A stretch of 41,250 nt of DNA from Bacteroidales bacterium. GTDB taxonomy: Bacteria; Bacteroidota; Bacteroidia; Bacteroidales; P3. The translations under genes and the position numbers were made by a program. The stretch is from positions 1 through 41,250 of the forward strand of contig JAFXMW010000073.1 in assembly GCA_017530105.1 (NCBI GenBank), written 5' to 3'. Shown piece after piece: positions 26,903-41,250 of the stretch (position 1 is the first letter of the stretch; every line of letters begins with the position of its first letter). The notes beneath the pieces are model-generated. The model made no database searches. It was not told where the DNA came from and saw only the letters and a list, made by a program, of their open reading frames with translations.

Positions 26903-26909
26903 CCCCTCC

Positions 26910-27524
26910 ATGAACCCCACAGGCAGTCCCCTGCTCGTAGCCCTCACCGGCGGCATCGGGTGCGGCAAAACCACCGTACTCCACGAGTTCCTTAAACTCG
27001 GTGTCCCCTGTTTTGTGGCCGACCAAGTGGCGGGAGCCTATTACAGCGACCCTGACTTCCTGCAGCAAATCCGCGCCCTCTTCGGCAACGATGTTTTCCG
27101 TCCCGACGGCACCGTCGACAAGCAGGCCATAGCCCGCATCGTCTTCGCCGACCCCGAAGCCCTGCAACGCCTCAATGCCCTCATCCATCCGCGGGTGTGG
27201 AACGACTTCCTCCTCTTCGCCTCGCAGCACCCCGCAGCCCCCTACCTCCTGTTCGAGAGCGCCATCGTCTACGAATACGACTTCGACCGTTTAGTTGACA
27301 AAGTCGTCTGCGTCTATGTCGAACTCGAAGAACGCCTGCGGCGGCTCGAGCAGCGCGACCATGCCACCCGTGCCCAGCTCCAGGCCCGCATCGCCAACCA
27401 ACTCTCCGCCGAAGACAAGATGCTTCGTGCCGACTACGTCATTCTCAACTACGAAGGCAATCCCCGCGCCCGCCAGGTAGCCCACATCCACAGTCTCCTC
27501 CTCCGGCAGGCCCACCAGCGGTAA
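26910..27524 (+). CDS. coaE: Dephospho-CoA kinase
   Basis: It phosphorylates dephospho-CoA in the last step of coenzyme A synthesis. The P-loop is GGIGCGKTT at residues 14-22. The acceptor-binding region VPCFVADQVAGAYYSD, the helix HPRVWNDF, the ESAIVYE segment and the lid RLRRLEQRDHATRAQLQARI are as in the family. Length 204 is normal. It ends the leuS-to-coaE run; the following 306 bases contain only repeats. Confidence 0.95.
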   Translation: MNPTGSPLLVALTGGIGCGKTTVLHEFLKLGVPCFVADQVAGAYYSDPDFLQQIRALFGNDVFRPDGTVDKQAIARIVFADPEALQRLNALIHPRVWNDFLLFASQHPAAPYLLFESAIVYEYDFDRLVDKVVCVYVELEERLRRLEQRDHATRAQLQARIANQLSAEDKMLRADYVILNYEGNPRARQVAHIHSLLLRQAHQR

Positions 27525-27581
27525 TTCCCCCGGCAAATCATTCTCCCCAAGACCCCCTCCCGTCCGAGCAACGGCAGGGCA

Positions 27582-27687
27582 CCTTCGCTCGTTCACCCTA
27601 TCTTAACCCTCAGTTCTCCCATATTTCTCCCATCCTGCATGGGAGAAATATGGGAGAAATATGGGAGAACTCACGCCGAACGAACGG
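27582..27687. repeat. Long imperfect palindromic repeat, copy 2 (inverted relative to copy 1)
   Basis: Bases 27611-27671 are the exact reverse complement of 1077-1137, and the outer arms (CCTTCGCTCGTT on the left, CGAACGAACGG on the right) are also related. The pair lies 26.5 kb apart in opposite orientation. It follows coaE by about 60 bases. Confidence 0.85.
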
Positions 27688-27725
27688 ACAAACAGAAAAA
27701 CCAGCCCTCCCCTCCGCCCCAACCA

Positions 27726-27744
27726 CCCTCTCCGTAGGAGAGGG
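27726..27744. repeat. Perfect hairpin of REP type
   Basis: Arms CCCTCTCC and GGAGAGGG around the loop GTA. It lies 16 bases before the 55-bp direct repeat, whose own hairpin (CCCCTCT-ATC-AGAGGGG) is similar, so the two may form one composite element. Confidence 0.7.
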
Positions 27745-27760
27745 AATGAAGAAAGGCCAA

Positions 27761-27815
27761 CGACAACAGTCCCCTCTATCAGAGGGGCAGGGGTGTGCTA
27801 CCTGCTGGCGGAGCC
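27761..27815 (+). repeat. 55-bp direct repeat, copy 1
   Basis: Matches 28420-28474 at 51 of 55 positions in the same orientation. It includes the hairpin CCCCTCT-ATC-AGAGGGG (27771-27787). The two copies bracket the DUF4160/DUF2442 pair. Confidence 0.85.
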
Positions 27816-27830
27816 AGCGCAAACCGCGTG

Positions 27831-28088
27831 TTATGCCGCAGTGCTGTGGTCGTATAAGAATTCGGGGGCGAAATCAACCCCGTTGAACCATTCCAAAGTC
27901 CAATCTGTAAGTCCAAACTGAATAAACTTATGTTTATCAAGTAAATCCTCTTTGTATTTACCGTGCAAGAATGGCTCAAAGTCGACAATACGGCGTTCAC
28001 CATTACTGAACTCTAATTCCATAACATAATCATGCAGGTATTCCACATCAACTACTCTAATAGGTTCAAAATGTTCCATATTCATCAT
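27831..28088 (-). CDS. DUF2442 family protein (partner of DUF4160)
   Basis: The 85-residue protein has the DUF2442 pattern IRVVDVEYLHDYVMELEFSN then GERRIVDFEPFLHGK and FNGVDFAPEFLYDHS. Its start overlaps the stop of the DUF4160 gene by four bases, so the two are translated together. Such DUF4160-DUF2442 pairs are widespread in bacteria and proposed to be toxin-antitoxin-like, without proof known to me. A second ATG (28082) could be the start. The pair stands alone between two direct repeats. Confidence 0.8.
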   Translation of the reverse strand: MMNMEHFEPIRVVDVEYLHDYVMELEFSNGERRIVDFEPFLHGKYKEDLLDKHKFIQFGLTDWTLEWFNGVDFAPEFLYDHSTAA

Positions 28089-28345
28089 TTTTCTAAAGGT
28101 TCTATTGGTAATGGCTCTTCGCCCTTTTTCAAACGCTCCCAGTTAGCCATAAGTTCATCGTAATGCAAGTCCAACCATTGGTAAACCCTGTTTAACTCCT
28201 TACGAGGGAATCGACCTTCCACATCTCCCTTATTGATGTATATGAGAGCTTTGTAGTTACCATACTTCGCATGGAAATGCGGAGGGTTGTGGTCATCGGG
28301 GAACATCAAAATGATGATACCAAAAAATCTACATATCTCAGGCAT
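28085..28345 (-). CDS. DUF4160 family protein
   Basis: The 86-residue protein begins MPEICRFFGIIILMFPDDHN, then PPHFHAKYGNYKALIYINKG and EGRFPRKELNRVYQWLDLH: the DUF4160 signature with the conserved HxPPHFHA segment. The His-rich motif suggests metal binding or a catalytic site, but function is unknown. It is the first gene of the pair with DUF2442 and has its own -7 box just upstream. Confidence 0.85.
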   Translation of the reverse strand: MPEICRFFGIIILMFPDDHNPPHFHAKYGNYKALIYINKGDVEGRFPRKELNRVYQWLDLHYDELMANWERLKKGEEPLPIEPLEK

Positions 28346-28361
28346 GACTAACTTTTTTTTG

Positions 28362-28369
28362 CAAAGATA
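28362..28369 (-). promoter_or_regulatory. -7 box of the DUF4160-DUF2442 pair
   Basis: TATCTTTG on the minus strand matches TAnnTTTG. Transcription would start near 28356, about ten bases before ATG 28345. A clear -33 element is not visible. Confidence 0.6.
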
Positions 28370-28419
28370 CGAATTTTTTTTGAGATGTCAGAAAAATTAG
28401 AAGTTGCATGAAACATCAT

Positions 28420-28474
28420 CGACAACAGTCCCTTCTATCAGAGGGGCAGGGGTGTGCTACATGCTGTCTGAGCC
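28420..28474 (+). repeat. 55-bp direct repeat, copy 2
   Basis: Four differences from 27761-27815. The hairpin CCCTTCT-ATC-AGAGGGG (28430-28446) keeps pairing through a G-T pair where the sequence differs. From here to 28785 I see no gene or other recognisable signal. Confidence 0.85.
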
Positions 28475-28785
28475 AAAGCAATTACAAGAAGTCATTTTGT
28501 CCGAGAAAAGGTTTCACCTGTCGAGAATCACATAATAAAGCACCATTTTGACACGGACACGTTCACTGGTACAAATCCTATTTCGTTATTCCAGTAAACG
28601 GTATAGGGACCAAGAGTATGATGGGAAAATGTGAAGAAAAAGGAAGTGTGTTTTCCCATGTGAAATAAAGTCAGAGCAGCACTTTGCCGGCATTATAATT
28701 GCATAAAAGAAAAAATAATCCAACTGATAGTAAGTGTTTTATAAAGAACCTTATTAAAAAAAGGCGTTAGTATTGAAAAAATGTG

Positions 28786-28793
28786 TATATTTG
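28786..28793 (+). promoter_or_regulatory. -7 box upstream of the tubulin/actin-like cluster
   Basis: TATATTTG, the same sequence as in the leuS promoter, with an imperfect -33 region. Transcription would start near 28797, immediately before a 7-bp hairpin. It is the only good promoter match seen ahead of the cluster. Confidence 0.6.
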
Positions 28794-28796
28794 CAC

Positions 28797-29046
28797 TCGA
28801 TTTCGGCGCAAGTCACGCCGAACGATGCGAAAAAAGCATTTGTAAGGTCCGAAAACTGAAATTTCGCCAAAAATTCAACCCAAGGACTCTGATACTAATG
28901 CCTTTTGCTTTGCCTTTATGTTGGCCGTTCTGGCTTCAGCATACTGGGGGCATAGGATAAGGTTCAATCAGTTTCTATTTGGGTAAGGCGTTTGGCGATG
29001 CCTCAGTTTCATAGGACTGCACAACACGAGTTCTATGCTTTTTTAT
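28797..29046 (+). ncRNA. Candidate structured leader or small RNA with its own terminator
   Basis: From the predicted transcription start the sequence forms a perfect stem TTCGGCG / CGCCGAA (28802-28808, 28816-28822), a short stem ATGC / GCAT (28825-28828, 28836-28839) and an AGGC / GCCT stem (28986-28989, 29000-29003). It ends in a terminator-like hairpin. It contains a 20-codon reading frame from ATG 28898 to TAA 28960 that begins MPFALPLCWP and could be a leader peptide. It matches no RNA family that I recognise. Either a separate small RNA or an attenuator for the downstream cluster would fit. Confidence 0.35.
29010..29046 (+). terminator. Intrinsic terminator / attenuator ahead of the cluster
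   Basis: CATAGGACT (29010-29018) pairs with AGTTCTATG (29029-29037) over nine positions including one G-U, with CTTTTTT directly after. It lies about 50 bases before ATG 29098, so transcription of the cluster must read through it or start after it. Confidence 0.6.
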
Positions 29047-29097
29047 TGTAGTTTAACGCCACCCGCTGGGAACTCAGGAAGGCAAAAAGTAATCAGT

Positions 29098-30519
29098 ATG
29101 AATGCAAAATATAAAATAGGGAAAGAATTATCTAATAAGAGAATACATCTAATTCCATTCTTTATTGGAATCCTCTGTACGTTCTTTTTGATAAGCTGCT
29201 GCATCGATGGTGACTATATGGATGACAGCAAGATAGACGATTTCAGTGCTGTGTATTTTGGGAAACAATTGGATAAAATTGAGATGCAGAAGGTCGCCTT
29301 ATATGTTGATAATTCTACGTGTATTGCTAATGCCATGAATGATGGGTCTAAGTTTTATAACGATATGGTAGCCGTATTGACCAGCGACAATATCGGAGAG
29401 TATTATTCAATAAAAGGAAAAGATATTATACCGGAAGAAGGTGATAAATACCAATTACTTAAATCTGTGTCGGAAATAAATTATGCAGATATTAAAACAG
29501 CTGCTGAGAGAATTGCCAACGGGAATTGTGAAGGAATTTTGCTTACAGATGGCGAGTATTATCAACCCACCATTTCTGGAAGCAATCCAAATAATCCATG
29601 GATGGAAACGGCAATTGTAAAATGGTTAAGTCGTGGTCACGAAATATTTGTGTTTTCCGAACCATACAAAGAAAGGTATAAAGGGAAAACATACAATAAA
29701 AAACGCTTTTATTTCATTTTCACTGATACCAAATATCAAGGAAATATATATGATTTTATTGTGAGTACCGTATCGTTGAAAAGCCATCCCTTGATTGGTC
29801 AATATCGTCTAACAGCTAATCACTTTACATTACTCACGGAAGGGAACAACAATTCGTCTACCCCAAATGAAAACTTTATGTGTAGTCCAACCCATTGTAA
29901 TGGATGGTCGGAGGTTCAAATATGGGATCAGTTGACATGGAAAGATATTTACAAATACATTGCTTGTGCAACTACTGATGATGGTGCGCCTTTGCCTGAT
30001 GGTGAAGCTGTACTGTCGCTTGTTCTTGACCGAAATTCAGGAGGTAGCTGTTTCCGCATTAGTGATGTGGATGTAAGAATATGCAATATTAGTGAGGAAT
30101 ACCAGAACTTTTGTATGATGATGGATAATGGTCAGAAGCCCTTGCAAATTGCTTTAAACAACCCTATTTCCATAATTTACCAAGACAATTTTATTAAGTT
30201 GGATAAAAAAGAATTTAATAATCATGGCAGATTGGATGTATATTTTGATGTCAATAATTTTGACCCATCCTTTCTTAACACAAAAGACGAGAATTTGCTA
30301 AAATTAGATTTTGTTGTTAGCGGGTATAATAATAATTTCAAGGATAAATCCCAAGCAGAAGAAATGTTTGTCTTCCCCGCAATAAATAAACCAGGAGAAA
30401 TGAATACATCTCTTGTGGCAAGTATTAGAAATGCTTTGGGCAATCCAAATGTCAAAAATTTAATGAAAGACCAGGTTATATATTCCGTGTATATCTTTTC
30501 TGGAAAAAATAATATGTAG
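29098..30519 (+). CDS. Lipoprotein with degenerate von Willebrand A-like pattern
   Basis: The 473-residue product starts at ATG 29098. An ATG at 29035 would put the start inside the terminator hairpin and spoil the signal peptide. A hydrophobic stretch (PFFIGILCTFFLISC) ends in a lipobox with Cys34. The mature part has VALYVDNSTCIANAM (Asp71-Asn-Ser73-Thr-Cys75), like the DxSxS metal site of vWA domains but with Cys for the last Ser. About 75 residues later comes CEGILLTDGEYY (Asp151-Gly), like the second vWA motif. The rest is not recognised. First gene of the cluster; probably displayed in the periplasm or on the outer membrane. Confidence 0.7.
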   Translation: MNAKYKIGKELSNKRIHLIPFFIGILCTFFLISCCIDGDYMDDSKIDDFSAVYFGKQLDKIEMQKVALYVDNSTCIANAMNDGSKFYNDMVAVLTSDNIGEYYSIKGKDIIPEEGDKYQLLKSVSEINYADIKTAAERIANGNCEGILLTDGEYYQPTISGSNPNNPWMETAIVKWLSRGHEIFVFSEPYKERYKGKTYNKKRFYFIFTDTKYQGNIYDFIVSTVSLKSHPLIGQYRLTANHFTLLTEGNNNSSTPNENFMCSPTHCNGWSEVQIWDQLTWKDIYKYIACATTDDGAPLPDGEAVLSLVLDRNSGGSCFRISDVDVRICNISEEYQNFCMMMDNGQKPLQIALNNPISIIYQDNFIKLDKKEFNNHGRLDVYFDVNNFDPSFLNTKDENLLKLDFVVSGYNNNFKDKSQAEEMFVFPAINKPGEMNTSLVASIRNALGNPNVKNLMKDQVIYSVYIFSGKNNM

Positions 30520-30547
30520 AAACAATAAAATTTTAAAAACAATCGAT

Positions 30548-30943
30548 ATGAACAAAATCACAACAATCCAAAAATTGGAATCCCTGCAGGGCAGTACCTA
30601 TGTTTATGCCGTAATCGCTATGTTGGTGGCTTTTTCCATTTCGGTGATTGTGGCGCAGATGATTGCATATCAGCCAAGAAATGACCGCTCGTATGTAAGG
30701 CGCAGGCTGTGGTCAGCTATTATTTGTGTTGTTTTTGCATTGGGTTTTTGGCTATACAATCAGCTGGTTGTTATTGGAACAATAACCAAGATGCCTTTGC
30801 AAGATAAGTTTGCCATGACCAATCTATTGTGCTTGGTAATAATTGTGATAGGGTATGCCTTGCTTGGGTTGATTGGTTCTTTGGTGTTTCGCAAATCAAA
30901 ATTTGCGACCATATTCTTCAAATCTGCAAACAAGAAAAAATAG
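30548..30943 (+). CDS. Small membrane protein, three predicted transmembrane segments
   Basis: The 131-residue protein has hydrophobic spans at about residues 18-40 (TYVYAVIAMLVAFSISVIVA), 55-75 (SAIICVVFALGFWLYNQLVV) and 92-114 (NLLCLVIIVIGYALLGLIGS), with basic loops and a Lys-rich end. No family was recognised. It lies between the vWA-like lipoprotein (28 bases before) and the tubulin-like protein (6 bases after), so it may recruit the cytoplasmic components to the inner membrane. Confidence 0.75.
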   Translation: MNKITTIQKLESLQGSTYVYAVIAMLVAFSISVIVAQMIAYQPRNDRSYVRRRLWSAIICVVFALGFWLYNQLVVIGTITKMPLQDKFAMTNLLCLVIIVIGYALLGLIGSLVFRKSKFATIFFKSANKKK

Positions 30944-30949
30944 TCTGAT

Positions 30950-32551
30950 ATGGAATACTTTGTTTTAGGTATCGGCGGAACTGGAATGAGATGCATTGAG
31001 TCATTCATTCATCTCTGTGCCATGGGAATGCTTGATGACACCACTGTACATTTATTGGCACTTGACACGGATAAAAACAATGGCAATTTTGCCAGACTTA
31101 AAGCCGTTAAAGATGCATATTTGAATGTGAAGGATTTAGATTCTTCCAACAGGACTACAGGAAAGGACTGTTTCTTTTCCGCCAATCTAAAATACTATGA
31201 GTTTAGTCCGAATTACGAACAAAAAAGCACATTCAAGGACGTTTTCGGCTATGATGACACACATTATAATAATAGGAATGCATCCGATTTGGCAGATTTG
31301 GTATTCTCTGGCGATGTTGAAGAATTTAATTTACGTCATGGATACCGTGCACAAACGCATTTGGGTTCAATGATGATGTACCACTCAATCATTGAGGCTG
31401 TGCAAAGCGATTTCAATAATGATTTGAAAAGGTTTCTCCAAAGTCTTATTGCAGCATCCAGCAATGGTAAGCCACGTGTGTTTATTTTAGGCTCTGTGTT
31501 CGGTGGTACTGGTGCGTCGTCCATTCCTATTATTCCGCAGGCCATCGCAAAAGCAGCAGGTATTATCTCCAAGGGTGCTTCCAATGTAATGCAAAATGCT
31601 TACTTTGGTTCAACGTTACTCACCGCATATTTCAAGTTTAACCTCCCGTCGGCAACAGAACGTAAGGAACAAAAGATAATTGCGACTTCGGATAAGTTTG
31701 CGCTTAACTCTCAAGTCGCAATGATGTTCTATCAAGATGATGCTACCGTTCAGACAACATATCAGAAATTCTACATGATTGGAACTCCTGGGATGGATTG
31801 GGACCCAATGCCTCAAAAAACGGAATCGGGTGCAAAAACCATTACTGGAGGTTCGGAACAAAAGAATGACTCACACTACATTGAATTGTTTGCCGCTTGT
31901 GCAGCGCTTGATTTCTTGAAAGTTGAGGAAGATGTGTTGCAGACAAATAAGACAAACAAAAAAGCCGACTATCAGTATCGTTCCATTAATGATAATGGCA
32001 AGATGGAATTTCAGGACTTGGTGGGACAAGCGAGAGCGGAAGAATTTGCCAAGAAGATGTCCATGTTGACCATTTTATCAATACTTTGCAACAACCCTGT
32101 CTATGATTTTGTGTCTTCATTACAGAACGGTGCGGCTAAAATTTCCGGTTTTGAGGACGTAAATCCGGAACAGATTAAAAATCTTAAGGACTATTTCGCT
32201 CTATACCATTTTAAGGCGGGAGGCGATGATGTCTTGAGTGAAGGTTGGCTGCGACAACTACATCGTTCTGCAGGAGGAAGTGACAAATTTCTTTTCGCTG
32301 CAGAAATGTTTGCGCCACAAACGGTAAAAGAGCAGACAAAATCCGATTGGAATCAGCCATTCCGCAACGAAGGTGTTTGCCGCGACAATGGTTTTTCTGT
32401 GAAACTGTTTGGGAACAAATACGACAAGATAAAAGAGAACTTTTTGAAGGTTTATGATGGGAAAGACGACATGTCTGCTTCATTCACAAATCGACATGAG
32501 CAGATGTTGAAACGTATCTATGATACACTAATTTCTGTCTATAAGTTCTAA
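30950..32551 (+). CDS. Tubulin/FtsZ-like GTPase-fold protein
   Basis: The 533-residue protein opens MEYFVLGIGGTGMRCIESF, a nucleotide-binding glycine loop at residues 7-12. It has ILGSVFGGTGASSIPIIPQA with GGTGAS at 185-190, the tubulin signature. The order resembles tubulin-like (Tubulin_2-type) proteins found in operons with vWA proteins. The second half (residues about 300-533) is not recognised, and I did not find a clear T7 synergy loop (NxDxxD) that would complete a GTPase site in a filament. It could polymerise or act as a switch. The gene begins 6 bases after the membrane protein. Confidence 0.75.
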   Translation: MEYFVLGIGGTGMRCIESFIHLCAMGMLDDTTVHLLALDTDKNNGNFARLKAVKDAYLNVKDLDSSNRTTGKDCFFSANLKYYEFSPNYEQKSTFKDVFGYDDTHYNNRNASDLADLVFSGDVEEFNLRHGYRAQTHLGSMMMYHSIIEAVQSDFNNDLKRFLQSLIAASSNGKPRVFILGSVFGGTGASSIPIIPQAIAKAAGIISKGASNVMQNAYFGSTLLTAYFKFNLPSATERKEQKIIATSDKFALNSQVAMMFYQDDATVQTTYQKFYMIGTPGMDWDPMPQKTESGAKTITGGSEQKNDSHYIELFAACAALDFLKVEEDVLQTNKTNKKADYQYRSINDNGKMEFQDLVGQARAEEFAKKMSMLTILSILCNNPVYDFVSSLQNGAAKISGFEDVNPEQIKNLKDYFALYHFKAGGDDVLSEGWLRQLHRSAGGSDKFLFAAEMFAPQTVKEQTKSDWNQPFRNEGVCRDNGFSVKLFGNKYDKIKENFLKVYDGKDDMSASFTNRHEQMLKRIYDTLISVYKF

Positions 32552-32558
32552 ATTAATT

Positions 32559-32564
32559 AAGGAG
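32559..32564 (+). promoter_or_regulatory. Strong Shine-Dalgarno before the actin-like gene
   Basis: AAGGAG lies nine bases before ATG 32574. Such a strong site is unusual among the genes in this window, most of which show none. Confidence 0.55.
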
Positions 32565-32573
32565 AATGTAGCA

Positions 32574-35500
32574 ATGGCAAAGGCATTACTAATAAAGAGT
32601 TATACACAAAAGACAGGGTCACAGGGTGTGTGGAACACACTTGATGATGCCGTGTCTTATGTACAGGGAATAAATACTGGCAAGTTATTGGAAAATTTGA
32701 CTGCTGACAAAATAAACGCCTTAATATCAGGCGTACCGTCGCCCTGGGCGAGAGCAAAACTGTTCAAGTTTGCATTTGATACAATAACGCATCCAGACCC
32801 AAACATTGAGGAGGCTGGTTTGACTCAATTTTACCAGATACTTGTAGGTGAGTGGAAGGGATTAGTTGCTGTTCTGGGGTTATTTGGAGACCGTATTAGA
32901 ATCTCCGACCCAATCTACATGCCGTTGAATGGAGATGAATACAACATAGTTTCAGCTTTTGGCAGAATGCTATTCTCCGACAAGGACTTGTGGAGTAACC
33001 AAGAGGCTCTTGCTGCATCGCCGGATGCACAACCATACATCCAATTAATCTACTATAATGACACTCTTATTGGAGGAACATCTCCAATGACAGCTTTCTT
33101 TACGGGAGTTGATTATTCTAATCTCTCCGGTGACACAACAGATATTCCATGGTACCGCAATGGAGTTTTTGAAGACCCTACCAAATATTTGGATCCTTCG
33201 AGTTTGCAAAAAGTATATCTTTTTGTGAAAAACATGAACTCCAATGCTGCGTCTTTTGAAAAGATGCTTAATTCCCAACGTAATGGAAATCCAAAATTAA
33301 GTATCGATGGATTCAAGAAATTGAGCCGTGATTGGGAATCTGAGCTAAAGAAAAAAGGTGGCAATACATTATCGGAGCGTGGCCCAATCGCTCAATACGA
33401 CAACCTTCAATGTCCATTCTCAATCTTGCTTAAAAGCGAAGTGCCGGTTTATCTAAAACCTGATTTTACATTTAGCTATTCTGATGGAGAGGGCTACAAA
33501 CAGGTTGGCGATATTCAAGGACTGCTTAGTTCGGAGCGATTTGTTGTCGGTTGGACGGAAGAGAAAGACACTAATCCAAAATTAAGTGATAGTGTCATGC
33601 ATTACCTTACGGTCAAAGATATTCGTGATGGTAGTTGCAGCTATTTCACATTGCCATTGTCTGAACGAGGTCTGGAGATATTTCAAAACAAGCTTGGCGG
33701 TTTGTTGGGACAACGCAATGATGGCAATGCGAAATTATCGGCCGAAATAACTGATGCGGGCAAACTGGCTGTTACAATGGAGGTGGAGATAGATGGAGAA
33801 TGGACAAAATTGAACAAGCGTGAATATACTATAAGTTGGCAAGTTATTCCTGCAAAGGTCATTATGTGGCCGAATTTCGTTTCGGAAAATTGGAATAAAT
33901 ATTACGTTTATTCCGAGTTTACAAATGAGGCCAAACAGAAGTTTGTTCCCATGTTTAAGGTTGGTGGACAGTTGATTAAGACTATTGATGGCGAAATACT
34001 GACCGCTGACTATGAGCCTCGTGCGGGAGAGACAAAACAGGTTGAGGTAAAACAACTTGTTAAATATCAGTCGGGTATTGACGAGTCTCTTCCTAAATAT
34101 AATATATCTGAATTTGATAAACCAATTTTTGGTTTGGTCGCCACAGCTAAAGATGGTGGCAAAGACTATCGGGCGGGATATCTCGTTTTACGCAGCGATA
34201 AGGTTAAAGACCTCTCCTCTGTCGATATGAAGAGCAATGCTATTATTGGTTTCGATTTTGGAAGCAATAATACTTGCGTTTTTTTCAATGCGGACAACCG
34301 TGGACCAGAACCAATAAAATTCGAGAATTATCGTGCGGTTATGGTCGGACGGGAAAATATGGATATGCGCTCGCTGGCTACAAATGATGAACTGCTATTC
34401 TTTAGCAATTATCCGTCACTTGATGGACAGGTGAAATCGTGGTTGCACGAACATGATTCCAGATTTAACCCGTATAGTCAGTCTGATGAGATTTCAGGAG
34501 GTGTTCCCGTTTATCGCCCCAACGTTCAAGTCCGTGAAATGACAGAATATGTCATTACCACACAGGCTGGAACTATGCATTACAATATGAAATGGCTTGA
34601 TGATGATAAAGGGTTGATGAAAAAACGAGCCTTCCTTAAGACAGTATGGGTTCAAGCATGTGCATATCTTTACACACATCAGATAAGACCTACGCAGATA
34701 GGATGGGGTTACCCTGGCTCTATGATGGAATCCGACAGGAATATTCTTGAGCAGACGTTTAACATGTTATGCTCTCTTACCCCAATTTCGGGGAAAAAGC
34801 CGACACTTTTGCCCACACTCACAACAGAATCCGAAGCCGTTTGCAGCTTTGCTTTAGGACAAAAATACGCTCTGGGAACAAATAATATAATGTTGGGTAT
34901 TGATGTTGGAGGAAGTACAAGCGACATTTTGTTACTTGCAAAGGGACATGATAGCTCTGACACTCTGATGCGCGAAAGTAGCGTGCGAATGGCTGCAGGT
35001 ATTTTCTTTGGTGCTGTTACCCGTTCAGATGAGTTCCGGAAAGCATTGGTGACATTCCATGAGAGCGGTAAAGTGAAGAATCTCCATGTGGAGAATATCC
35101 AGGAAATATTAAGTAGTAAAGAAAAGGCTCCGTACTATTTGAATAATATTTTCGATCAATTGAAGACATCAGATGAGTATGAAGCCCTGTATACCTCTCT
35201 TAGTGAGCGAGCGAAGCGTGTGTTCACTATACCAGCATATGTGACAGGAATGCTGCTTTTCTACTCCGGTATGATGATAGGAAGAGCAATAAAAGACAAT
35301 CAACTTTCCAGCGTACAAAATGTTGACATCTTCTCGTTTGGCAAGGGAGGTCGATTATTCCATTGGCTTTCCAACGCTACGGCACCAAGAGTTGTAAGTC
35401 AGTATTATGCTGATTGCGTTAATGCAGGCATAGCTTGCGTGTCCGAGAGTCTGCACTTGACCGTTACATACGACAATTCAACGAGCGAATTTAATAAGTC

Positions 35501-35945
35501 TGAGGTGGCCCGTGGTCTATGTGATATGAAGATGTTGAACAAAGCCCCACAAGCTGCCGATTGTGATATTTGCGGTGAACGGAATGTGCAGTATACCGAT
35601 GGACAAGGTACTCGTGTTATAAATGTCGATGAGGAATTGAGTGGTGATTATTTTGCCAATAGCATGAATAACTTTAATTTTGGTAGAGCTGAGAATTTGG
35701 AGAAATTCATGCAAATATTCTTTGATTTTGTTTCGACAAAGACTGATTTGTGCAAAGATGCCAAAAATCTGTTAAGTGATGCCATTTCCTCGCTGCCAAA
35801 TCATTTCAAGACTAATATAACAAATCACGACACAGAATACAAGAAAGCGTTACGCAACAATTCTGACGGGTTCCATTATCACCAACCTATCATTATCGCG
35901 GAAGCACTTTATTTGCAAAATGTGTTAATAGAAAAAGTGTTCTAA
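32574..35945 (+). CDS. Very large actin/Hsp70-like ATPase-domain protein
   Basis: The 1123-residue protein has an unrecognised N-terminal region (about 1-550) and an actin/Hsp70-type ATPase domain behind it. Phosphate-1 motif GFDFGSNNTC begins at Gly559, phosphate-2 GIDVGGSTSDILLL at Gly775, and an adenosine-type motif FSFGKGG at about 920. A WGYPGSMMESDRN segment between them is like the connecting region in such ATPases. No signal peptide or membrane span, so it is cytoplasmic. The C-terminus (residues about 980-1123) contains CDICGER but no recognised domain. It lies between the tubulin-like gene (22 bases) and the repeat protein (7 bases), and may be the ATP-driven motor or chaperone of the system. 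Confidence 0.8.
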   Translation: MAKALLIKSYTQKTGSQGVWNTLDDAVSYVQGINTGKLLENLTADKINALISGVPSPWARAKLFKFAFDTITHPDPNIEEAGLTQFYQILVGEWKGLVAVLGLFGDRIRISDPIYMPLNGDEYNIVSAFGRMLFSDKDLWSNQEALAASPDAQPYIQLIYYNDTLIGGTSPMTAFFTGVDYSNLSGDTTDIPWYRNGVFEDPTKYLDPSSLQKVYLFVKNMNSNAASFEKMLNSQRNGNPKLSIDGFKKLSRDWESELKKKGGNTLSERGPIAQYDNLQCPFSILLKSEVPVYLKPDFTFSYSDGEGYKQVGDIQGLLSSERFVVGWTEEKDTNPKLSDSVMHYLTVKDIRDGSCSYFTLPLSERGLEIFQNKLGGLLGQRNDGNAKLSAEITDAGKLAVTMEVEIDGEWTKLNKREYTISWQVIPAKVIMWPNFVSENWNKYYVYSEFTNEAKQKFVPMFKVGGQLIKTIDGEILTADYEPRAGETKQVEVKQLVKYQSGIDESLPKYNISEFDKPIFGLVATAKDGGKDYRAGYLVLRSDKVKDLSSVDMKSNAIIGFDFGSNNTCVFFNADNRGPEPIKFENYRAVMVGRENMDMRSLATNDELLFFSNYPSLDGQVKSWLHEHDSRFNPYSQSDEISGGVPVYRPNVQVREMTEYVITTQAGTMHYNMKWLDDDKGLMKKRAFLKTVWVQACAYLYTHQIRPTQIGWGYPGSMMESDRNILEQTFNMLCSLTPISGKKPTLLPTLTTESEAVCSFALGQKYALGTNNIMLGIDVGGSTSDILLLAKGHDSSDTLMRESSVRMAAGIFFGAVTRSDEFRKALVTFHESGKVKNLHVENIQEILSSKEKAPYYLNNIFDQLKTSDEYEALYTSLSERAKRVFTIPAYVTGMLLFYSGMMIGRAIKDNQLSSVQNVDIFSFGKGGRLFHWLSNATAPRVVSQYYADCVNAGIACVSESLHLTVTYDNSTSEFNKSEVARGLCDMKMLNKAPQAADCDICGERNVQYTDGQGTRVINVDEELSGDYFANSMNNFNFGRAENLEKFMQIFFDFVSTKTDLCKDAKNLLSDAISSLPNHFKTNITNHDTEYKKALRNNSDGFHYHQPIIIAEALYLQNVLIEKVF

Positions 35946-35952
35946 AACGTAT

Positions 35953-38439
35953 ATGGAACAATTGGTTCTATATGTGGATAAGTATTATATCATTGGAGTT
36001 CGATGTTCCGATGGTATTTGCCGCACCATTCGATTGCCTAATGGAGAGGACCGTATCTGGCTGTATTTCTACGAAGATCTAGCCCACAATGAGGTGACTT
36101 ATGGTAAGCAATACGAAACCTCATGCCTTAATCGTGACATACACTATTACGGTGATATCTTTGAGAATATTTGTGATAGTCGAATGATGTTCACTCAGTA
36201 TGACCACCAAAGCGAACTACGGGACATATTCTCTGTCTCAGGTCTTTTTGATCATTTGAAGAGCCCATTCAAAGAAAAGGATAACATTAATTCATATATC
36301 TCCTTTTCTCAGAATATCGGGCCTGCAGCACGTTCAATTTTCATTGAAGAATTGGAAGAATCAGGGGTCAGTGTAAAACTTCGTGTTGCTTGGCCAGAAC
36401 AACTTGCATTAGAATCGCTGCAGCGAAAATCACGGCTTGATTTATCGGGAGACCTTCTTGTGCTTAATGCATTGGGAGACAACATGTATTTCTCTACTTA
36501 TCGTTTTAGTGATGATTTGTTTGTTAGAATGAATGCTGATTGTCTTCCAGGAATGGGTATGGATGTGAGAGTTCGTGCATTAGTCGAAGATGTGGTTGAG
36601 AAAGCGAATTGGAATGATGCGTATCTTAAAACCAAGGAAGAAAAAGAATATGAACGTCAGCGATTAAAAAGACTCTTTGGCACGGAATGGATACAGAGAC
36701 TTGATGCCACACGTCAAGGGAGGCCACTTTGTATTGGTAATTTCTATTTTGCAAACGCAAAATACAATACATTAAGCGTTACAATACAATCCTCGGATAT
36801 AGACAGACGCACCGATGCGGTTGTGAATGACATTGTAAGAGAAGTTTCGCGTACAATCTCGAAATATTCAGTTAAGAATATCGTAATGCTCGGCGATACT
36901 TTCACCAACAGCATGTTTGAGCAGGCGATTAGAGGAAAACTTACAGTAAACAACGAAGCAGTACTCCGTATTCCGACCTCATCATTGTATGAAATCCTCG
37001 GAGTGTATCCTATCATTGATGATGTCCAATTCTCTTCCATAGAAAAGAGGTTTGTGAAAGATGCGGATGCAGAACGTATTCGTATTGAAAATGCCATACG
37101 TGAAGAGGAGGAACAAAAAAATGCAGAGTTAGAGCTGAAAAGAAAAGGAGAGGAGGAAAAGGCGCGTACAGAAGCTGAGAAATGGTATCGAACAGAAATG
37201 CAGAGTGCTTATGAATATGAGGGAAAACAAGAATACCAAAAGATGCTTGATGCTTGCGAGCAGGCATTAAAACACAAACCAGGGGACGAAGAAGCGGAAA
37301 AGAAGAAAATTGATGCAATCGGCTATCTGAAAAAGGAGGAATTATCAAGCAAACAATATACTGATTCGATTACCAAAGCGAAAGAATATTATTCCAACTC
37401 ACGGTACCAAGAAGCCCTTGCTTTAAGTGAGGTGGCACTTAATTTTTGTCCGGATTCTGCGGAAGCAAGCCGCATAAAAACAGATGCACTAACTGCCTTA
37501 AATAGAGCATCACGCATTCAAGATTTTGTTACGAGTGCCAATGTTTACATTAAGCAGCAGATGTATGAGAGTGCGGAGAAGGAATTGAATAAGATTCTCA
37601 ATTTGGATAGTCAAAACGAGGACGCTTTAAGATTGATGGAACATTTAGCAGAACGGAAATCTTTTATTGATGGCTTATCCGCACAGTTTTCCAAGGCGGA
37701 GAAGGAAGAAGACATGGAAGTCCTTCAATCTTTATATGAGAAAATTAAAGATACTGATTCTTCGCTTGCAAAGTCATGGCTAAACAGAATTAATGCAGTC
37801 AAACGACTAATAGAGAGTAAACGGAAGACTTTAACGCAGTTGTCGGAAATTCGAGAACAAATTGACTCTGCAGAATTTAATGACGACTGGGAGCAAGTTG
37901 TTTCTCTCTGTAAGAAAAGCCTTGCAATAAAGAGCCAAAAGGATATTAATGAGAAACTGGTTAGAGCACAACGGAAGGTTGAAAAAATAAAAGAAAAAAG
38001 AGATTATCAACAAAAGATAGACCTAATACAATTGCTTATTAATGATAGTAAATTAAGTGATGCGAAAAAAATATTAACGGATTTTCAAGAACAATATCCA
38101 GATAAGCAGACGGTATCTAAGAAATTTTTGGGGGCAATTTTTAAGGCAGAAGAGGTATTAGAGATGGAACTTCGCAAAAAGAAGACAGTATCTCACAGAA
38201 AAGAACCAGAATCGAAAGAAAATAAGAGGAAAGAACCTAAAGAAAAAACTAAGCAAGCAAAACCTGATTTCTTTGAGGATGACACGACTTCGCCAACAAA
38301 GAAGACATCAAGTAAAAAAGATGATACAAAACCACACCCTACGATAAAAAACAATCCCAAAACTGGAATTGACTTTTTCGATAATGAAACCCAACCAGAG
38401 GAAATAAAAAAGATAAGTATAAACGATTTCAAATTTTAA
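35953..38439 (+). CDS. Repeat/coiled-coil protein with possible degenerate actin-like N-terminus
   Basis: The 828-residue protein has three parts. Residues 1-365 show a pattern like a degraded actin/Hsp70 fold: LYVDKYYIIGVRCSDG near the start, DLLVLNALGDNMYF (from 167) and NIVMLGDTFTNSMFEQ (from 309), with the usual catalytic residues missing. Residues about 368-420 are a Glu/Lys/Arg coiled coil. From about 405 to 720 are TPR-like helical repeats, such as YEGKQEYQKMLDACEQALKH and NSRYQEALALSEVALNF. The tail is basic and low-complexity, with PDFFEDDT and IDFFDNET near the end. The family was not recognised. It probably scaffolds the large ATPase encoded 7 bases upstream. Confidence 0.65.
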   Translation: MEQLVLYVDKYYIIGVRCSDGICRTIRLPNGEDRIWLYFYEDLAHNEVTYGKQYETSCLNRDIHYYGDIFENICDSRMMFTQYDHQSELRDIFSVSGLFDHLKSPFKEKDNINSYISFSQNIGPAARSIFIEELEESGVSVKLRVAWPEQLALESLQRKSRLDLSGDLLVLNALGDNMYFSTYRFSDDLFVRMNADCLPGMGMDVRVRALVEDVVEKANWNDAYLKTKEEKEYERQRLKRLFGTEWIQRLDATRQGRPLCIGNFYFANAKYNTLSVTIQSSDIDRRTDAVVNDIVREVSRTISKYSVKNIVMLGDTFTNSMFEQAIRGKLTVNNEAVLRIPTSSLYEILGVYPIIDDVQFSSIEKRFVKDADAERIRIENAIREEEEQKNAELELKRKGEEEKARTEAEKWYRTEMQSAYEYEGKQEYQKMLDACEQALKHKPGDEEAEKKKIDAIGYLKKEELSSKQYTDSITKAKEYYSNSRYQEALALSEVALNFCPDSAEASRIKTDALTALNRASRIQDFVTSANVYIKQQMYESAEKELNKILNLDSQNEDALRLMEHLAERKSFIDGLSAQFSKAEKEEDMEVLQSLYEKIKDTDSSLAKSWLNRINAVKRLIESKRKTLTQLSEIREQIDSAEFNDDWEQVVSLCKKSLAIKSQKDINEKLVRAQRKVEKIKEKRDYQQKIDLIQLLINDSKLSDAKKILTDFQEQYPDKQTVSKKFLGAIFKAEEVLEMELRKKKTVSHRKEPESKENKRKEPKEKTKQAKPDFFEDDTTSPTKKTSSKKDDTKPHPTIKNNPKTGIDFFDNETQPEEIKKISINDFKF

Positions 38440-38458
38440 TCTTAAAAAAATTAATGTT

Positions 38459-39037
38459 ATGGCAGAAGTCCAATTAAAAAAGAAAGTAACCCTTAAACGT
38501 AAAGGGGAATCCGCAGCTTTTACCTTCAATGGCAAGCTGAAAGTCAAACTTATATGGGGAACAGATACTGACCAGGATCTCTGTATCTTCTTCAAAAAGA
38601 AGAATGGTGAGGTCGGCGGCGTGTTCAGCAATGAGTATCGCAACAAAAAAAGCGACTTGGGTAATCTGAACGAGTTCCCGTATATGCTTCACATGGGCGA
38701 CAATAAAGAACCCCAACCTGGTGGAGAGGAAGTCGAGCAGATCAATGTTGCTCGTCTTGATGAAATCGACACAGCCTATGTCTGTGTTGTGAACTATGGC
38801 GCTGCAATCGACGGAGAGGATGTAACTTTCGCTCAAGACCATGCTCGAATTGAGTTGCAAAGTGACTCCGGTGATTATCTGGAAGTGTTGGCAAATTCGG
38901 AAGACCATGGCCACGTCTATTGTGTATGCTCCATCAAGAATGCCAATGGGGAAAATTCGCTTATGAACGAAAGCCGTGTTATGGACCTTAACACAGCATT
39001 CGAGGAGATTCCTGGCTTCTCCCTGATTTGCAATTGA
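38459..39037 (+). CDS. TerD-family protein (tellurium-resistance/stress domain)
   Basis: The 192-residue protein has the TerD domain. VKLIWGTDTDQDLCIFFKKK (Asp36, Asp38, Asp40) gives the acidic calcium-binding cluster. GVFSNEYRNKKSDLGNLNEF, YMLHMGDNKEPQPGGEE and INVARLDEIDTAYVCVVN follow, then a C-terminal MDLNTAFEEIPGF. TerD domains bind Ca2+ and occur in stress, tellurite and phage-related systems. The first residues VQLKKKVTLKRKG are shared in spirit with the next gene. No TerB, TerC or TerZ companion is in the window. Cytoplasmic. Confidence 0.88.
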   Translation: MAEVQLKKKVTLKRKGESAAFTFNGKLKVKLIWGTDTDQDLCIFFKKKNGEVGGVFSNEYRNKKSDLGNLNEFPYMLHMGDNKEPQPGGEEVEQINVARLDEIDTAYVCVVNYGAAIDGEDVTFAQDHARIELQSDSGDYLEVLANSEDHGHVYCVCSIKNANGENSLMNESRVMDLNTAFEEIPGFSLICN

Positions 39038-39049
39038 TTTGATTGAATT

Positions 39050-39673
39050 ATGGCACAGATTAAGAGAAAAGTTTCACTTCGCCAAAAAACTACTGGCAAC
39101 GAGGTGACGGCTGCACCCTTAACACCAACTAAGCCCAAGAAACCATGGTGGCCATGGTTATTGGTCGGAGTTTTAGTGTGTGGTGTCATCATTTTCTTGA
39201 TGACTCGTGGTAAAGGTGATGCCAATGACATTTTGGAACAGTCTACAGAACAAATAGAAGAAGACGTGCCCGCACAGGATGTTCCTAACGTGGCAGAACC
39301 AGAGTCTAAAGAGAATGGTACAGGAGAATCAACCGATGAGCAATCAACGGTACAAAACGAAACTCTTACGCCAGAACCTTCCCAGAAAGCCTCTGACATG
39401 AATACTTCGCCACAGCAAAACCAAGGCTCTCCAGCTAACAAGCAGCAAGCTACGCCGAAGACTCAAGTTCCTCAATCCACTGTACAAAACAACGCATCTG
39501 CCTCACGTAGTATGACTATGTCTGAAGCAAATGGTACAATAGAGGAGGAGGCTTGGCGTACCATCCGTGGCAATTATGGAAATGGAGCTGCTCGCAAAAA
39601 GGCTTTGGGAAGCAGATATGAAGAGATTCAGGCAAAAGTCAATGATTATTATCGCGAAGGGAAAGTTTATTAA
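39050..39673 (+). CDS. Single-span protein with Cpl-7-like (CW_7) wall-binding motif
   Basis: The 207-residue protein starts MAQIKRKVSLRQKTTG, a basic N-terminus similar to the start of the TerD protein. A Pro/Trp-rich segment and one transmembrane helix follow (residues about 34-52, WWPWLLVGVLVCGVIIFLM). The region 55-160 is polar and disordered (Glu, Gln, Pro, Ser, Thr). The last 45 residues (TIEEEAWRTIRGNYGNG, ARKKALGSRYEEIQAKVNDY) match the pattern of Cpl-7/CW_7 peptidoglycan-binding repeats: a GNG motif followed by RK..LG.RY..IQ..VN. Topology would place the N-terminus inside and the wall-binding part in the periplasm, linking the cytoplasmic components to the cell wall. Confidence 0.7.
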   Translation: MAQIKRKVSLRQKTTGNEVTAAPLTPTKPKKPWWPWLLVGVLVCGVIIFLMTRGKGDANDILEQSTEQIEEDVPAQDVPNVAEPESKENGTGESTDEQSTVQNETLTPEPSQKASDMNTSPQQNQGSPANKQQATPKTQVPQSTVQNNASASRSMTMSEANGTIEEEAWRTIRGNYGNGAARKKALGSRYEEIQAKVNDYYREGKVY

Positions 39674-39682
39674 CCCTATATC

Positions 39683-39721
39683 AAGGGTGTTACCACGATG
39701 CTTACTGATGGTAGCACCCTT
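39683..39721 (+). terminator. Intrinsic terminator or attenuator inside the cluster
   Basis: AAGGGTGTTACCA (39683-39695) pairs with TGGTAGCACCCTT (39709-39721), all 13 positions including one T-G pair, followed by a short TT. With few Us after the stem it may only partly end transcription, lowering expression of the downstream genes. Confidence 0.65.
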
Positions 39722-39747
39722 TTAAAAATGAAATACGATAAGTAAAA

Positions 39748-39927
39748 ATGATGACAGGAATAGTAATTAAAATAATTCTGTCTTTGTTCATAATATTGGT
39801 ATTACCGACCCTAGTGAATGCCAAATTAAAGAAGCACTGGCATAAATTCATAAAATGGACATGTTACATTATAGGTGCTCTATTACTTTTCTACGCTTTG
39901 ATTGACCTTATACATATCATAATATAA
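39748..39927 (+). CDS. Small two-span membrane protein (59 residues)
   Basis: From ATG 39748 (or the adjacent ATG 39751) to TAA 39925-39927 the frame reads MMTGIVIKIILSLFIILVLP, then a basic loop KLKKHWHKFIKW, then CYIIGALLLFYALIDLIHII. This gives two hydrophobic helices around a positively charged turn. It is only 59 residues, which is why a 60-residue cutoff would hide it. It fills the gap between the terminator and the next lipoprotein, seven bases before its ATG. No family recognised; small two-helix proteins often modulate larger membrane complexes, here possibly the P-type ATPase. Confidence 0.6.
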   Translation: MMTGIVIKIILSLFIILVLPTLVNAKLKKHWHKFIKWTCYIIGALLLFYALIDLIHIII

Positions 39928-39934
39928 ACCAACG

Positions 39935-40501
39935 ATGAGAAAAAAATCAATCTTGCTCACCATTGTATTACTCATGTCGTGTATTACTCATACTAACACA
40001 AATGAGTCATCCAATGAACCGACAATCTATCAACAGCAGCTGCTGGATGATGGATGGAGAATGGGAAATCCGAGAAAAGGGGATATGCCGGAAGAGTATG
40101 GTGTTACTGCCCAGTTGGGAATAGTAGATAACTACTTTGATATTGAATTGGGTGGAGATGCCGATATGGTTATTAAGATTGTTGACATACAAACTGGAGA
40201 GACTGTAAGGTACATGTTTGTGCAACATAATTCCCACACCACAATTAACGAAATACCCGCCGGGAAATACTATTTGAAATTTGCCTACGGTAATGATTGG
40301 ATGTCTCACAGTGATGGCCACCATGCAGAAGGTAAATTTACAAGAAATGTTGTATACGAGAAATCCAATGATTTCTTTGACTTCGGGAATGTAGGTTCGT
40401 TAGAGTCCGTTTCATTCAGTTTGCGGATTAAGGTCGAAAGAGACCAACGCTATGAAGATTTTTCCACAAGTATTATTACAGAAGAAGAATTTAATGAATA
40501 A
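39935..40501 (+). CDS. Lipoprotein of unknown function
   Basis: The 188-residue product has a short lipoprotein signal MRKKSILLTIVLLMSC with Cys16. The mature part contains PTIYQQQLLDDGWRMGN, DADMVIKIVDIQTGETVRYM, HTTINEIPAGKYYLKFAYGN and VSFSLRIKVERD. The middle looks like a small beta-sandwich (the GKYYLKF pattern is common in carboxypeptidase-regulatory-like or similar folds). No family was assigned. It is 20 bases before the P-type ATPase and could be a periplasmic or outer-membrane partner of the system. Confidence 0.65.
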   Translation: MRKKSILLTIVLLMSCITHTNTNESSNEPTIYQQQLLDDGWRMGNPRKGDMPEEYGVTAQLGIVDNYFDIELGGDADMVIKIVDIQTGETVRYMFVQHNSHTTINEIPAGKYYLKFAYGNDWMSHSDGHHAEGKFTRNVVYEKSNDFFDFGNVGSLESVSFSLRIKVERDQRYEDFSTSIITEEEFNE

Positions 40502-40521
40502 ATCACAAAAGGAATAATACA

Positions 40522-41250
40522 ATGGCACAGAAACATCATTACACAGGTTTGACGGATGCCGAAGTATTGGATAGCCGTCTAAAGCATGGTGTCAACATCC
40601 TGACACCTCCCGAAGAACAGTCCACTTGGGACAAAATCAAGGACTGTATGCATTATTGGTTGCTCAAACTCATTCTTGGGTTATTCGTGGCTTCAATAAT
40701 AGTAGTGTTTACTCTAAAAGTAGTGGGAGTAAGTATGCCCCATAATGTCCGGATTGGGCCAATTATTCTTGTTGTGCTTTTTTTCCTCACCTACTTGGTG
40801 GCTTATCTTGGTGGTGACTGGGACGATGAGGAACGGAAGTTCGACATGGACCCGCTTATTACTATACTGCTTGCAGCGTTGGTATTGAGTGGAGCTATCT
40901 CTTTTTATCAAGGTGTGTTTGGCGGTGAAACTGGATTTACACCATATTTTGAACCAGTGGGTATTGCTTTTGCTGTGTTATTGGCTACTGGAGTAGCACA
41001 CATACTTGAAGCCAAGAATGAAAAGACTTTTCAGGCTTTAAATGAAGTAAATGACGAGACACTTGTTAAAGTAATACGCAACAACAATGTCTGCCAAGTG
41101 GAACGGAAGGATATTGTTGTGGGAGACATTGTTCTTCTTAATGCAGGTGAAGAGGTGCCAGCAGACTGCATCCTATTAGAAGCTGAGCGTCTTAGCGTTA
41201 ATGAATCGTCGTTGAATGGAGAATCCCTTGCTTCTCATAAAACTACAATA
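40522..41250 (+). CDS. P-type cation-transporting ATPase, calcium type (3' end outside window)
   Basis: The frame from ATG 40522 is open to the window end (243 residues). It begins LTDAEVLDSRLKHGVNILTP, the N-terminal cation-ATPase pattern. The actuator domain follows (VKVIRNNNVCQVERKDIVVG, DIVLLNAGEEVPADC, LSVNESSLNGES at 225-235). The conserved TGES motif reads NGES, keeping the catalytic Glu234. The pair before the actuator (about 111-131 and 145-163) fits M1-M2. An additional hydrophobic pair (about 47-67 and 79-97) with a charged loop (GGDWDDEERKFD) precedes it. The phosphorylated DKTGT motif is beyond the window. With a TerD gene nearby, calcium is a plausible ion. Confidence 0.88.
   Translation, partial: MAQKHHYTGLTDAEVLDSRLKHGVNILTPPEEQSTWDKIKDCMHYWLLKLILGLFVASIIVVFTLKVVGVSMPHNVRIGPIILVVLFFLTYLVAYLGGDWDDEERKFDMDPLITILLAALVLSGAISFYQGVFGGETGFTPYFEPVGIAFAVLLATGVAHILEAKNEKTFQALNEVNDETLVKVIRNNNVCQVERKDIVVGDIVLLNAGEEVPADCILLEAERLSVNESSLNGESLASHKTTI

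Follow-up and report, generated by a model that had tools for sequence, protein, structure and literature searches.

A structured leader RNA, probably an attenuator, precedes an FtsZ-like-1 operon and unrelated operons in Bacteroidales

Operons that combine a tubulin-superfamily GTPase with a vWA protein have been on record since Makarova and Koonin (2010; PMC2875224) described the FtsZ-like-1/vWA class, for which they proposed a role in membrane remodelling and named Bacteroides members. Ter components are regarded as parts of conflict systems in the summary given in PMC7824862, and the Jug phages, jumbo phages of gut Bacteroidota described in PMC12363816, carry both TerD genes and a gene for a calcium P-type ATPase. 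Here we analyze a 41,250-nucleotide stretch of a Bacteroidales genome (GenBank assembly GCA_017530105.1, contig JAFXMW010000073.1, positions 1–41,250), referred to below as the window, in which ten tightly packed genes on a single strand (29098–41250) form an operon of the FtsZ-like-1 kind and a structured leader RNA of about 250 nucleotides (28790–29044) lies between the promoter and the operon. We consider it reasonably likely that the locus is a horizontally acquired FtsZ-like-1 operon governed by a shared attenuator-type leader RNA; the products of the operon probably form a stress or conflict machine associated with the envelope. The RNA was absent from the initial annotation of this DNA and alters what is new about the locus.

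The leader RNA, like every operon feature given below, is encoded on the plus strand, and its 255 bases run from TTTGCA to a U-run. It belongs to a conserved promoter-plus-RNA block (28739–29053) containing TATATTTGCA (28786–28795), which we take, from the general consensus of Bacteroidota promoters, to be the -7 element. Across 42 aligned copies from the host clade the RNA measures 246–268 nucleotides, and TTTGC is invariant in all 42. A comparison of upstream regions shows conserved, terminator-ended leaders ahead of the operon in Prevotella-type relatives and ahead of one distant tubulin system (L075). A scan with 4227 Rfam models returned no match over the leaders in the window (27400–41250) or in L006, L008, L010, L012, L120, L123, L134, L135, L140 and L141; elsewhere in the scanned stretches its hits were two tRNAs, together with miRNA and Thr_leader matches below threshold. 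As we found no prior description in Rfam 15 (11 sources scanned) or in open-licence PMC papers, the RNA is apparently new to description; this search did not extend to the 3161 human-microbiome RNA candidates reported in PMC8040213.

Evidence for a fold comes from covariation, measured as weighted mutual information with average product correction in two clades aligned separately (48 Prevotella-group and 42 host-clade leaders). In the Prevotella group, ranks 1–5 of all column pairs belong to one long-range helix, which links a strand in the middle of the RNA to one lying some 200 columns downstream; its pairs are canonical in essentially all 48 sequences and are of four or five types. Two more long-range helices take up ranks 6 and 9 and ranks 8 and 11–13, respectively. 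In the host clade, ranks 1–11 all fall within two helices: K1 (ranks 1, 2, 4, 5, 6, 8 and 9), in which AAACUGA (28854–28860) pairs with UCAGUUU (29003–29009), and K2 (ranks 3, 7, 10 and 11), in which ACCCAA (28879–28884) pairs with UUGGGU (28979–28984). K1 is paired in 92.5% of alignment cells and K2 in 88%; a third helix, K3 (UCGCCAAA, 28865–28872, with UUUGGCGA, 28991–28998), varies little and is paired in 96.4%. The rod as a whole has 81.6% of cells paired, compared with 75.2% in shuffles, and contains 262 doubly changed paired cells, compared with 110.1 ± 7.9 in shuffles (0 of 500 reach it) and 49–110 in slid controls. Such strong compensatory covariation indicates selection on the pairing of the RNA. 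A kissing-loop (pseudoknot) model of the K helices was dropped because the minimum free energy (MFE) fold of the window leader and the RNAalifold consensus both nest K1, K3 and K2 with the outer arm in one rod; the evidence for the pairs is unchanged and only the topology differs. We also set aside the idea that the K helices serve as copy-specific 'addresses', for which cross pairing of 0.55 (K1) and 0.69 (K2), against 0.93 and 0.88 for own strands, came from 18 within-genome comparisons, too few to uphold it.

The 3' arm of the terminator, UUCUAUGC with its U-run (29031–29044), is common to two mutually exclusive pairings. The arm (29031–29038 plus the U-run) can pair with GCAUAGGA (28950–28957) to give a terminator hairpin, or with the candidate antiterminator 5' arm AAAAAGCAU (28831–28839), which is complementary to both the 3' arm and the U-run. 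Among the 42 leaders, the six-pair terminator helix is paired in 99.6% of cells and five of its pairs never vary, and the antiterminator helix is paired in 97.3% with five of its nine pairs never varying. As both pairings are near-invariant, their support is conservation and not covariation. The RNAalifold consensus of the 42 leaders is the rod, with the antiterminator arm paired, and a forced rod is more stable than a forced terminator in 38 of 41 leaders (one of the 42 was missed by the motif search), with a mean of -7.6 kcal/mol. Analogous pairs are visible by eye in the Prevotella clade, where AAAGGCGU pairs with ACGCUUUU and, alternatively, GCGUGGG with CCCACGC; a loose AAGGCGU-like pattern occurs in 45 of the 48 leaders there.

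Since the pairings are exclusive and near-invariant and the consensus is the rod, we read the leader as an attenuator acting in cis, for which there is a fair case, and we infer that the rod is the read-through state. Transcription would start shortly after TATATTTGCA, at a predicted position of about 28797. The nascent RNA could then form an intrinsic terminator from GCAUAGGA, UUCUAUGC and the U-run, or the 3' arm and U-run could pair with AAAAAGCAU while the RNA closes up along K1, K3 and K2 to make a long rod, in which case the polymerase would read through into the operon. One cellular signal, possibly a small molecule, a NusG-family protein or the rate of transcription or translation, might switch a set of variable operons together.

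The spread of the RNA was surveyed with two covariance models, R1 (3' domain, 8 sequences) and R2 (host type, 30 sequences), each trained on the clade where it scores best. These searches score at most 16–18 candidates per genome, and copy numbers are therefore lower bounds. R1 matches 177 of 249 Prevotella-group genomes, with at least 16 matches in one genome; it did not find the window's own leader in the sources scanned for it. With the window leader as a DNA query, copies appear in 54 of 189 host-family genomes. In 218 genomes drawn from the order, R2 matches 25 and R1 matches 21, with 9 names in both lists; the names listed suggest that the two draws comprise the same genomes, in which case about 37 carry the RNA by one model or the other. 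Of the 218, 197 are without a match to R1 and 193 without a match to R2, and the weakest matches, near an expectation value (E) of 1e-3, may be false. In the host genome the two models together recover at least six copies (R2: contigs C53, C10 twice and C132; R1: C63 and C81). Matches to the 3' domain also occur in plasmid records, namely those of Phocaeicola dorei, P. vulgatus and Bacteroides finegoldii. The P. dorei and B. finegoldii copies can be followed over the remainder of the RNA, whose long-range complementarity is visible by eye, and they stand before a coding sequence; tractable hosts for the RNA thus exist. Phage records gave no DNA match to the window leader or the P. dorei leader. 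Taken as a structured, widespread RNA, the leader rests on strong evidence.

We inspected the neighbours of 40 Prevotella-group and 40 host-clade copies chosen from the higher-ranking rows of the lists, with genes called by a longest open reading frame (ORF) script at a minimum of 70 amino acids. The former set comprises the upper listed rows minus those copies whose place ahead of the tubulin operon was known beforehand; the latter comes from the 93 rows other than the window, with a few skipped, plus a second copy from the window's own genome. The operons that follow the RNA are unrelated to one another and encode BspA/leucine-rich repeat (LRR) surface proteins, UpxY/NusG, restriction, caspase-like proteins and several tubulin-like systems. 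Pfam assigns 11 of 69 first and second downstream proteins in the Prevotella group to BspA-type LRR and 5 to NusG, and among 65 host-clade proteins it assigns three to Tubulin_2, three to caspase and two to dynamin, with single type I restriction, kinase, LytTR and other matches. Tubulin-like systems related by blastp to that of the window lie downstream of L181, L183, L185 and L207 in the host clade and of L121 and L145 in the Prevotella group. In the host family, the RNA lies less than 4 kb upstream on the same strand at 6 of 19 tubulin-like places, the window included. This count used 64 of the 94 DNA-match rows, the weakest being dropped except for the row at the G041 tubulin locus (the L012 tubulin locus is on this G041 contig), and it is 6 rather than 5 because that weak row was kept. 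With the same RNA class ahead of so many unrelated operons, one signal could switch the whole set. We offer as a tentative proposal, one we do not favour outright, that the RNA is a Bacteroidales-wide switch class that provides a common control port: horizontally exchanged surface, stress and defence operons, several tubulin/Hsp70 machines among them, would sit behind the same promoter-RNA cassette, and one signal or NusG-type factor would activate them all.

Three further observations concern the genes behind individual copies. The second leader copy in the window's own genome (L180, G000:C10:46719–46947) precedes a type I restriction methylase (HsdM; N6_Mtase, E 1.1e-108). In L182, L195 and L196 the leader precedes operons with proteins of about 1030–1050 amino acids that start like a long Tubulin_2 protein (GLGGTGG) and apparently represent another FtsZ-like-1 class. 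The Prevotella-group copies L114, L116, L124 and L139 are all followed by a shared series of about eight genes, and several of these appear to encode signal peptides.

The NusG-type genes behind some copies bear on an alternative in which the RNA serves as a platform that recruits a NusG-family complex for processive antitermination, comparable to ops/RfaH, the LoaP hairpin and EAR. UpxY or a paralogue acting in trans would bind the RNA, and the polymerase would then cross terminators along long, low-GC acquired operons. UpxY is a factor that acts on its own leader. Of the 40 Prevotella-group loci, 7 form a blast cluster with a UpxY/NusG-like gene as the first called ORF, and the Pfam NusG assignments above may be added to these; several of the downstream operons are long, the window cluster is low in GC, and LoaP (PMC12691694) and EAR (PMC2864571), as described in those papers, are precedents. 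In most inspected copies, however, the first gene is not UpxY, and simple recruitment needs no conserved terminator of its own with an exclusive partner arm, so we regard the platform as unlikely.

The position of the neighbouring genes speaks to a second alternative, a stand-alone small RNA (sRNA) that acts in trans from its own promoter and terminator, with the operon expressed by read-through or from a separate promoter. The constant length of the promoter-to-terminator unit in the 42 copies would suit such an RNA, and multicopy Bacteroides sRNAs are known from FopS (PMC11697453). A same-strand ORF nevertheless starts within 100 nucleotides of the RNA end in 49 of the 80 inspected copies (28 of 40 in the Prevotella group and 21 of 40 in the host clade), a plain sRNA would have no obvious need of the exclusive 5' arm, and FopS is described in the cited account as a single-stranded 5' stretch followed by a terminator hairpin. 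A stand-alone sRNA is accordingly, in our judgement, improbable.

The promoter-RNA block recurs at 93.7% identity over 317 columns in a same-genus genome (G080:C49), where the flanks are unrelated and the operon that follows encodes a tubulin-like protein only about 26% identical over the aligned part; leader and cargo appear to have been re-paired. The same near-identity would suit a view of the block as mainly a recombination or gene-conversion cassette that swaps acquired operons under a common promoter, with RNA structure secondary. The compensatory covariation, as a sign of selection on pairing, makes this very improbable as a full account, and a cassette of this sort may be an addition to the RNA reading and not an alternative to it.

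Several observations weigh against a cis-acting attenuator shared among operons, which is the reading we prefer. The covariation measure does not amount to a phylogenetic test, ranks 7 and 10 in the Prevotella group are pairs that are not mostly canonical, and further pair types in the host-clade rod, one of five measures, are no more numerous than in shuffles (115 versus 112.2; 144 of 500). The apical rod helices 10, 15 and 16 are poorly kept, with 49, 30 and 45% of cells paired, respectively. The MFE structure in the Prevotella clade has the far-upstream partner in 24 of 48 leaders, the terminator alone in none and something else in 24. Because the antiterminator stem ends beside the U-run, it could itself act as a terminator, and the assignment of the read-through state is accordingly provisional. 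The copies inspected for neighbours were taken from upper ranks and not at random; in 2 of 40 and 3 of 40 of them (5 of 80) the next called ORF runs the other way, an arrangement compatible with a stand-alone RNA. Finally, one close operon (L073) has no RNA just upstream of its vWA gene, and the single R1 match in that genome lies elsewhere.

The operon itself is real and its gene order is conserved. A scan with the tubulin-like protein yielded 12 loci in Prevotella, Porphyromonas uenonis, Xylanibacter rarus (L008) and others, and the order vWA, three-span, tubulin-like, Hsp70-like is held wherever the contig permits. The vWA-like and three-span genes lie upstream of the tubulin-like gene in 11 of the 12 loci (the twelfth contig begins at the tubulin gene), and the Hsp70-like gene lies downstream in 11 of 12. 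Genes for the TPR, TerD-like and CW_7 proteins come next in all seven sufficiently long loci (L002, L003, L004, L008, L009, L010 and L013), the lipoprotein gene is then present in six of these, and the P-type ATPase gene follows it in four; L004 has the ATPase upstream of vWA, and L002 and L010 end earlier. In 20 further loci (L045–L054, L056–L059, L062, L063 and L075–L078), with tubulin-like proteins about 35–49% identical, an Hsp70-like gene is present in 16 (blastp, E 1e-3) and was not found in L045, L048, L053 and L063. The ten-gene cluster of the initial annotation is thus present in full, on one strand and closely packed, and its expectation that the genes co-occur in other genomes agrees with the joint conservation and order seen in relatives. 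Occurrence is sporadic: 18 of 190 host-family genomes at E ≤ 1e-3 and, at E ≤ 1e-20, 13 of 393 genomes sampled from the order (both counts include the window's own genome) and 8 of 299 genomes of a Prevotella group. Phage records contain no match to the tubulin-like or TerD-like protein. The fall in GC from 0.57–0.62 in two genes at 25982–27524 to 0.35–0.45 in the cluster suggests, on composition, that the tubulin/Hsp70 cluster is acquired DNA. As a separate observation, the tubulin-like gene of L069 (G821:C50:7848–9353) has a single in-frame TGA.

The first gene (29098–30519) encodes a vWA-like lipoprotein that Pfam vWA does not match; its DxSTC and TDG motifs are invariant in 11 of 11 sequences, and the metal ion-dependent adhesion site of vWA domains has the form DxSxS...T...D. 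A three-span membrane protein (30548–30943) is followed by the GTPase (30950–32551; FtsZ-like-1/Tubulin_2), for which sequence and predicted structure support an FtsZ/tubulin fold with a GGTG-type loop; at E ≤ 0.001 a Foldseek search by itself missed tubulin, and profile searches of Protein Data Bank sequences with the tubulin-like and TerD-like proteins returned nothing useful. The 1123-residue protein (32574–35945), which has a big additional N-terminal region, finds DnaK/Hsp70 as its best Foldseek matches (E 4.5e-10; 191 matches at E ≤ 0.001), with low TM-scores of 0.17–0.20 by query and 0.29–0.47 by target, and has weak Hsp70 sequence-profile matches (E 0.01–0.3). Structure prediction thus supports the tubulin-like and actin-like folds named initially, and the 'actin/Hsp70-like' label narrows to an Hsp70-type nucleotide-binding domain, that is, an Hsp70 fold within the actin superfamily. 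Next come a TPR protein (35953–38439) whose N-terminal ~390 residues are without family assignment and may, judged by eye, include a degenerate Hsp70-like N-terminus, and a distant TerD-like protein (38459–39037), present in two copies in several relatives. Called simply TerD at first, the latter may be a distant relative: a profile-profile comparison with TerD gives a probability of 95.7 and E 8.5e-9, with only 4 sequences on one side, and eight listed plasmid matches (residues 1–184, 25% identity, weak E of 0.09–0.1) are annotated as TerD family or TerA. Pfam TerD (PF02342) matches none of 17 homologues and none of 21 genomes, the window's own included, compared with 2 of 14 control genomes, and no match was found among solved structures. 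The remaining genes encode a CW_7 wall-binding protein (39050–39673; E 3.4e-10) whose sequence shows a hydrophobic segment at the N-terminal end, a 58-residue membrane protein (39751–39927), a lipoprotein (39935–40501) and a calcium-type P-type ATPase (40522–41250) in which the contig (G000:C53) terminates; longer relatives of the ATPase reach 960 (L055) and 894 (L004) residues. A search of nine window proteins against PADLOC gave no convincing defence model, only two weak matches to unrelated models (E 2.2e-4 and 2.3e-3). It is reasonable to suppose that the protein machine would be envelope-linked and nucleotide-driven; none of the results points to calcium sensing.

Upstream of 5977 in L077, a small hydrophobic ORF stands before the vWA gene, where other loci have the RNA, and resembles by eye the 58-residue membrane protein of the window. 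In the window, a near-identical intergenic stretch (CGACAACAGTCCC...CAGAGGGGCAGGGGTGTGCTAC) occurs twice (27758–27806 and 28418–28463) and flanks two small minus-strand genes (27831–28345), presumably a DUF2442/DUF4160-like pair. A near-perfect palindrome made of GGGAGAAATATGGGAGAA (27606–27666), with only sub-threshold miRNA matches in Rfam, lies just ahead of the acquired-looking region.

If the attenuator reading is correct, Bacteroidales from the gut, the mouth and the rumen have in common a regulatory RNA that connects UpxY, BspA-type, restriction, caspase-like and cytoskeleton-like conflict loci, and the long-standing question of how these bacteria coordinate large sets of acquired variable operons becomes directly testable. 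The FtsZ-like-1 operons proposed in 2010 would likewise gain a regulatory context and a route to the conditions of their expression.

Compared with described systems, the window operon is a Bacteroidales variant of the known, uncharacterized FtsZ-like-1/vWA kind. The initial annotation could name no characterized system with this exact set; the kind itself has been known since 2010. The operons of PMC2875224 are alike in their tubulin-superfamily GTPase, vWA and membrane proteins; the window adds Hsp70-like, TPR, TerD-like, wall-binding CW_7 and calcium-type P-type ATPase genes in conserved order. The main text of that paper, as far as covered, names no TerD, calcium or Hsp70 and no leader RNA. 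With Ter stress and conflict systems (Anantharaman 2012, as relayed in PMC7824862 and PMC11090510) the window shares a putative TerD-like domain, a vWA-like protein, membrane components and, in those accounts, a conflict context; it differs in that its TerD-like protein is missed by Pfam TerD and in that Pfam recognizes no TerB/TerC, phosphoribosyltransferase or haloacid dehalogenase (HAD) gene in the cluster. The covered account of the Jug phages treats their terD regions apart from the ATPase, which has a small partner gene, and mentions neither tubulin nor Hsp70. Transcription attenuators and riboswitches, the LoaP hairpin and the EAR/epsC leaders are likewise leader RNAs with an intrinsic terminator before long operons, whereas the window leader is without an Rfam match and is common to unrelated operons in many Bacteroidales families. 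The FopS family of Bacteroides thetaiotaomicron is also a multicopy Bacteroidales RNA with a terminator, but it is presented in PMC11697453 as an sRNA with a single-stranded 5' seed and a terminator hairpin, whereas the RNA of the window is a rod or terminator of about 250 nucleotides placed before operons.

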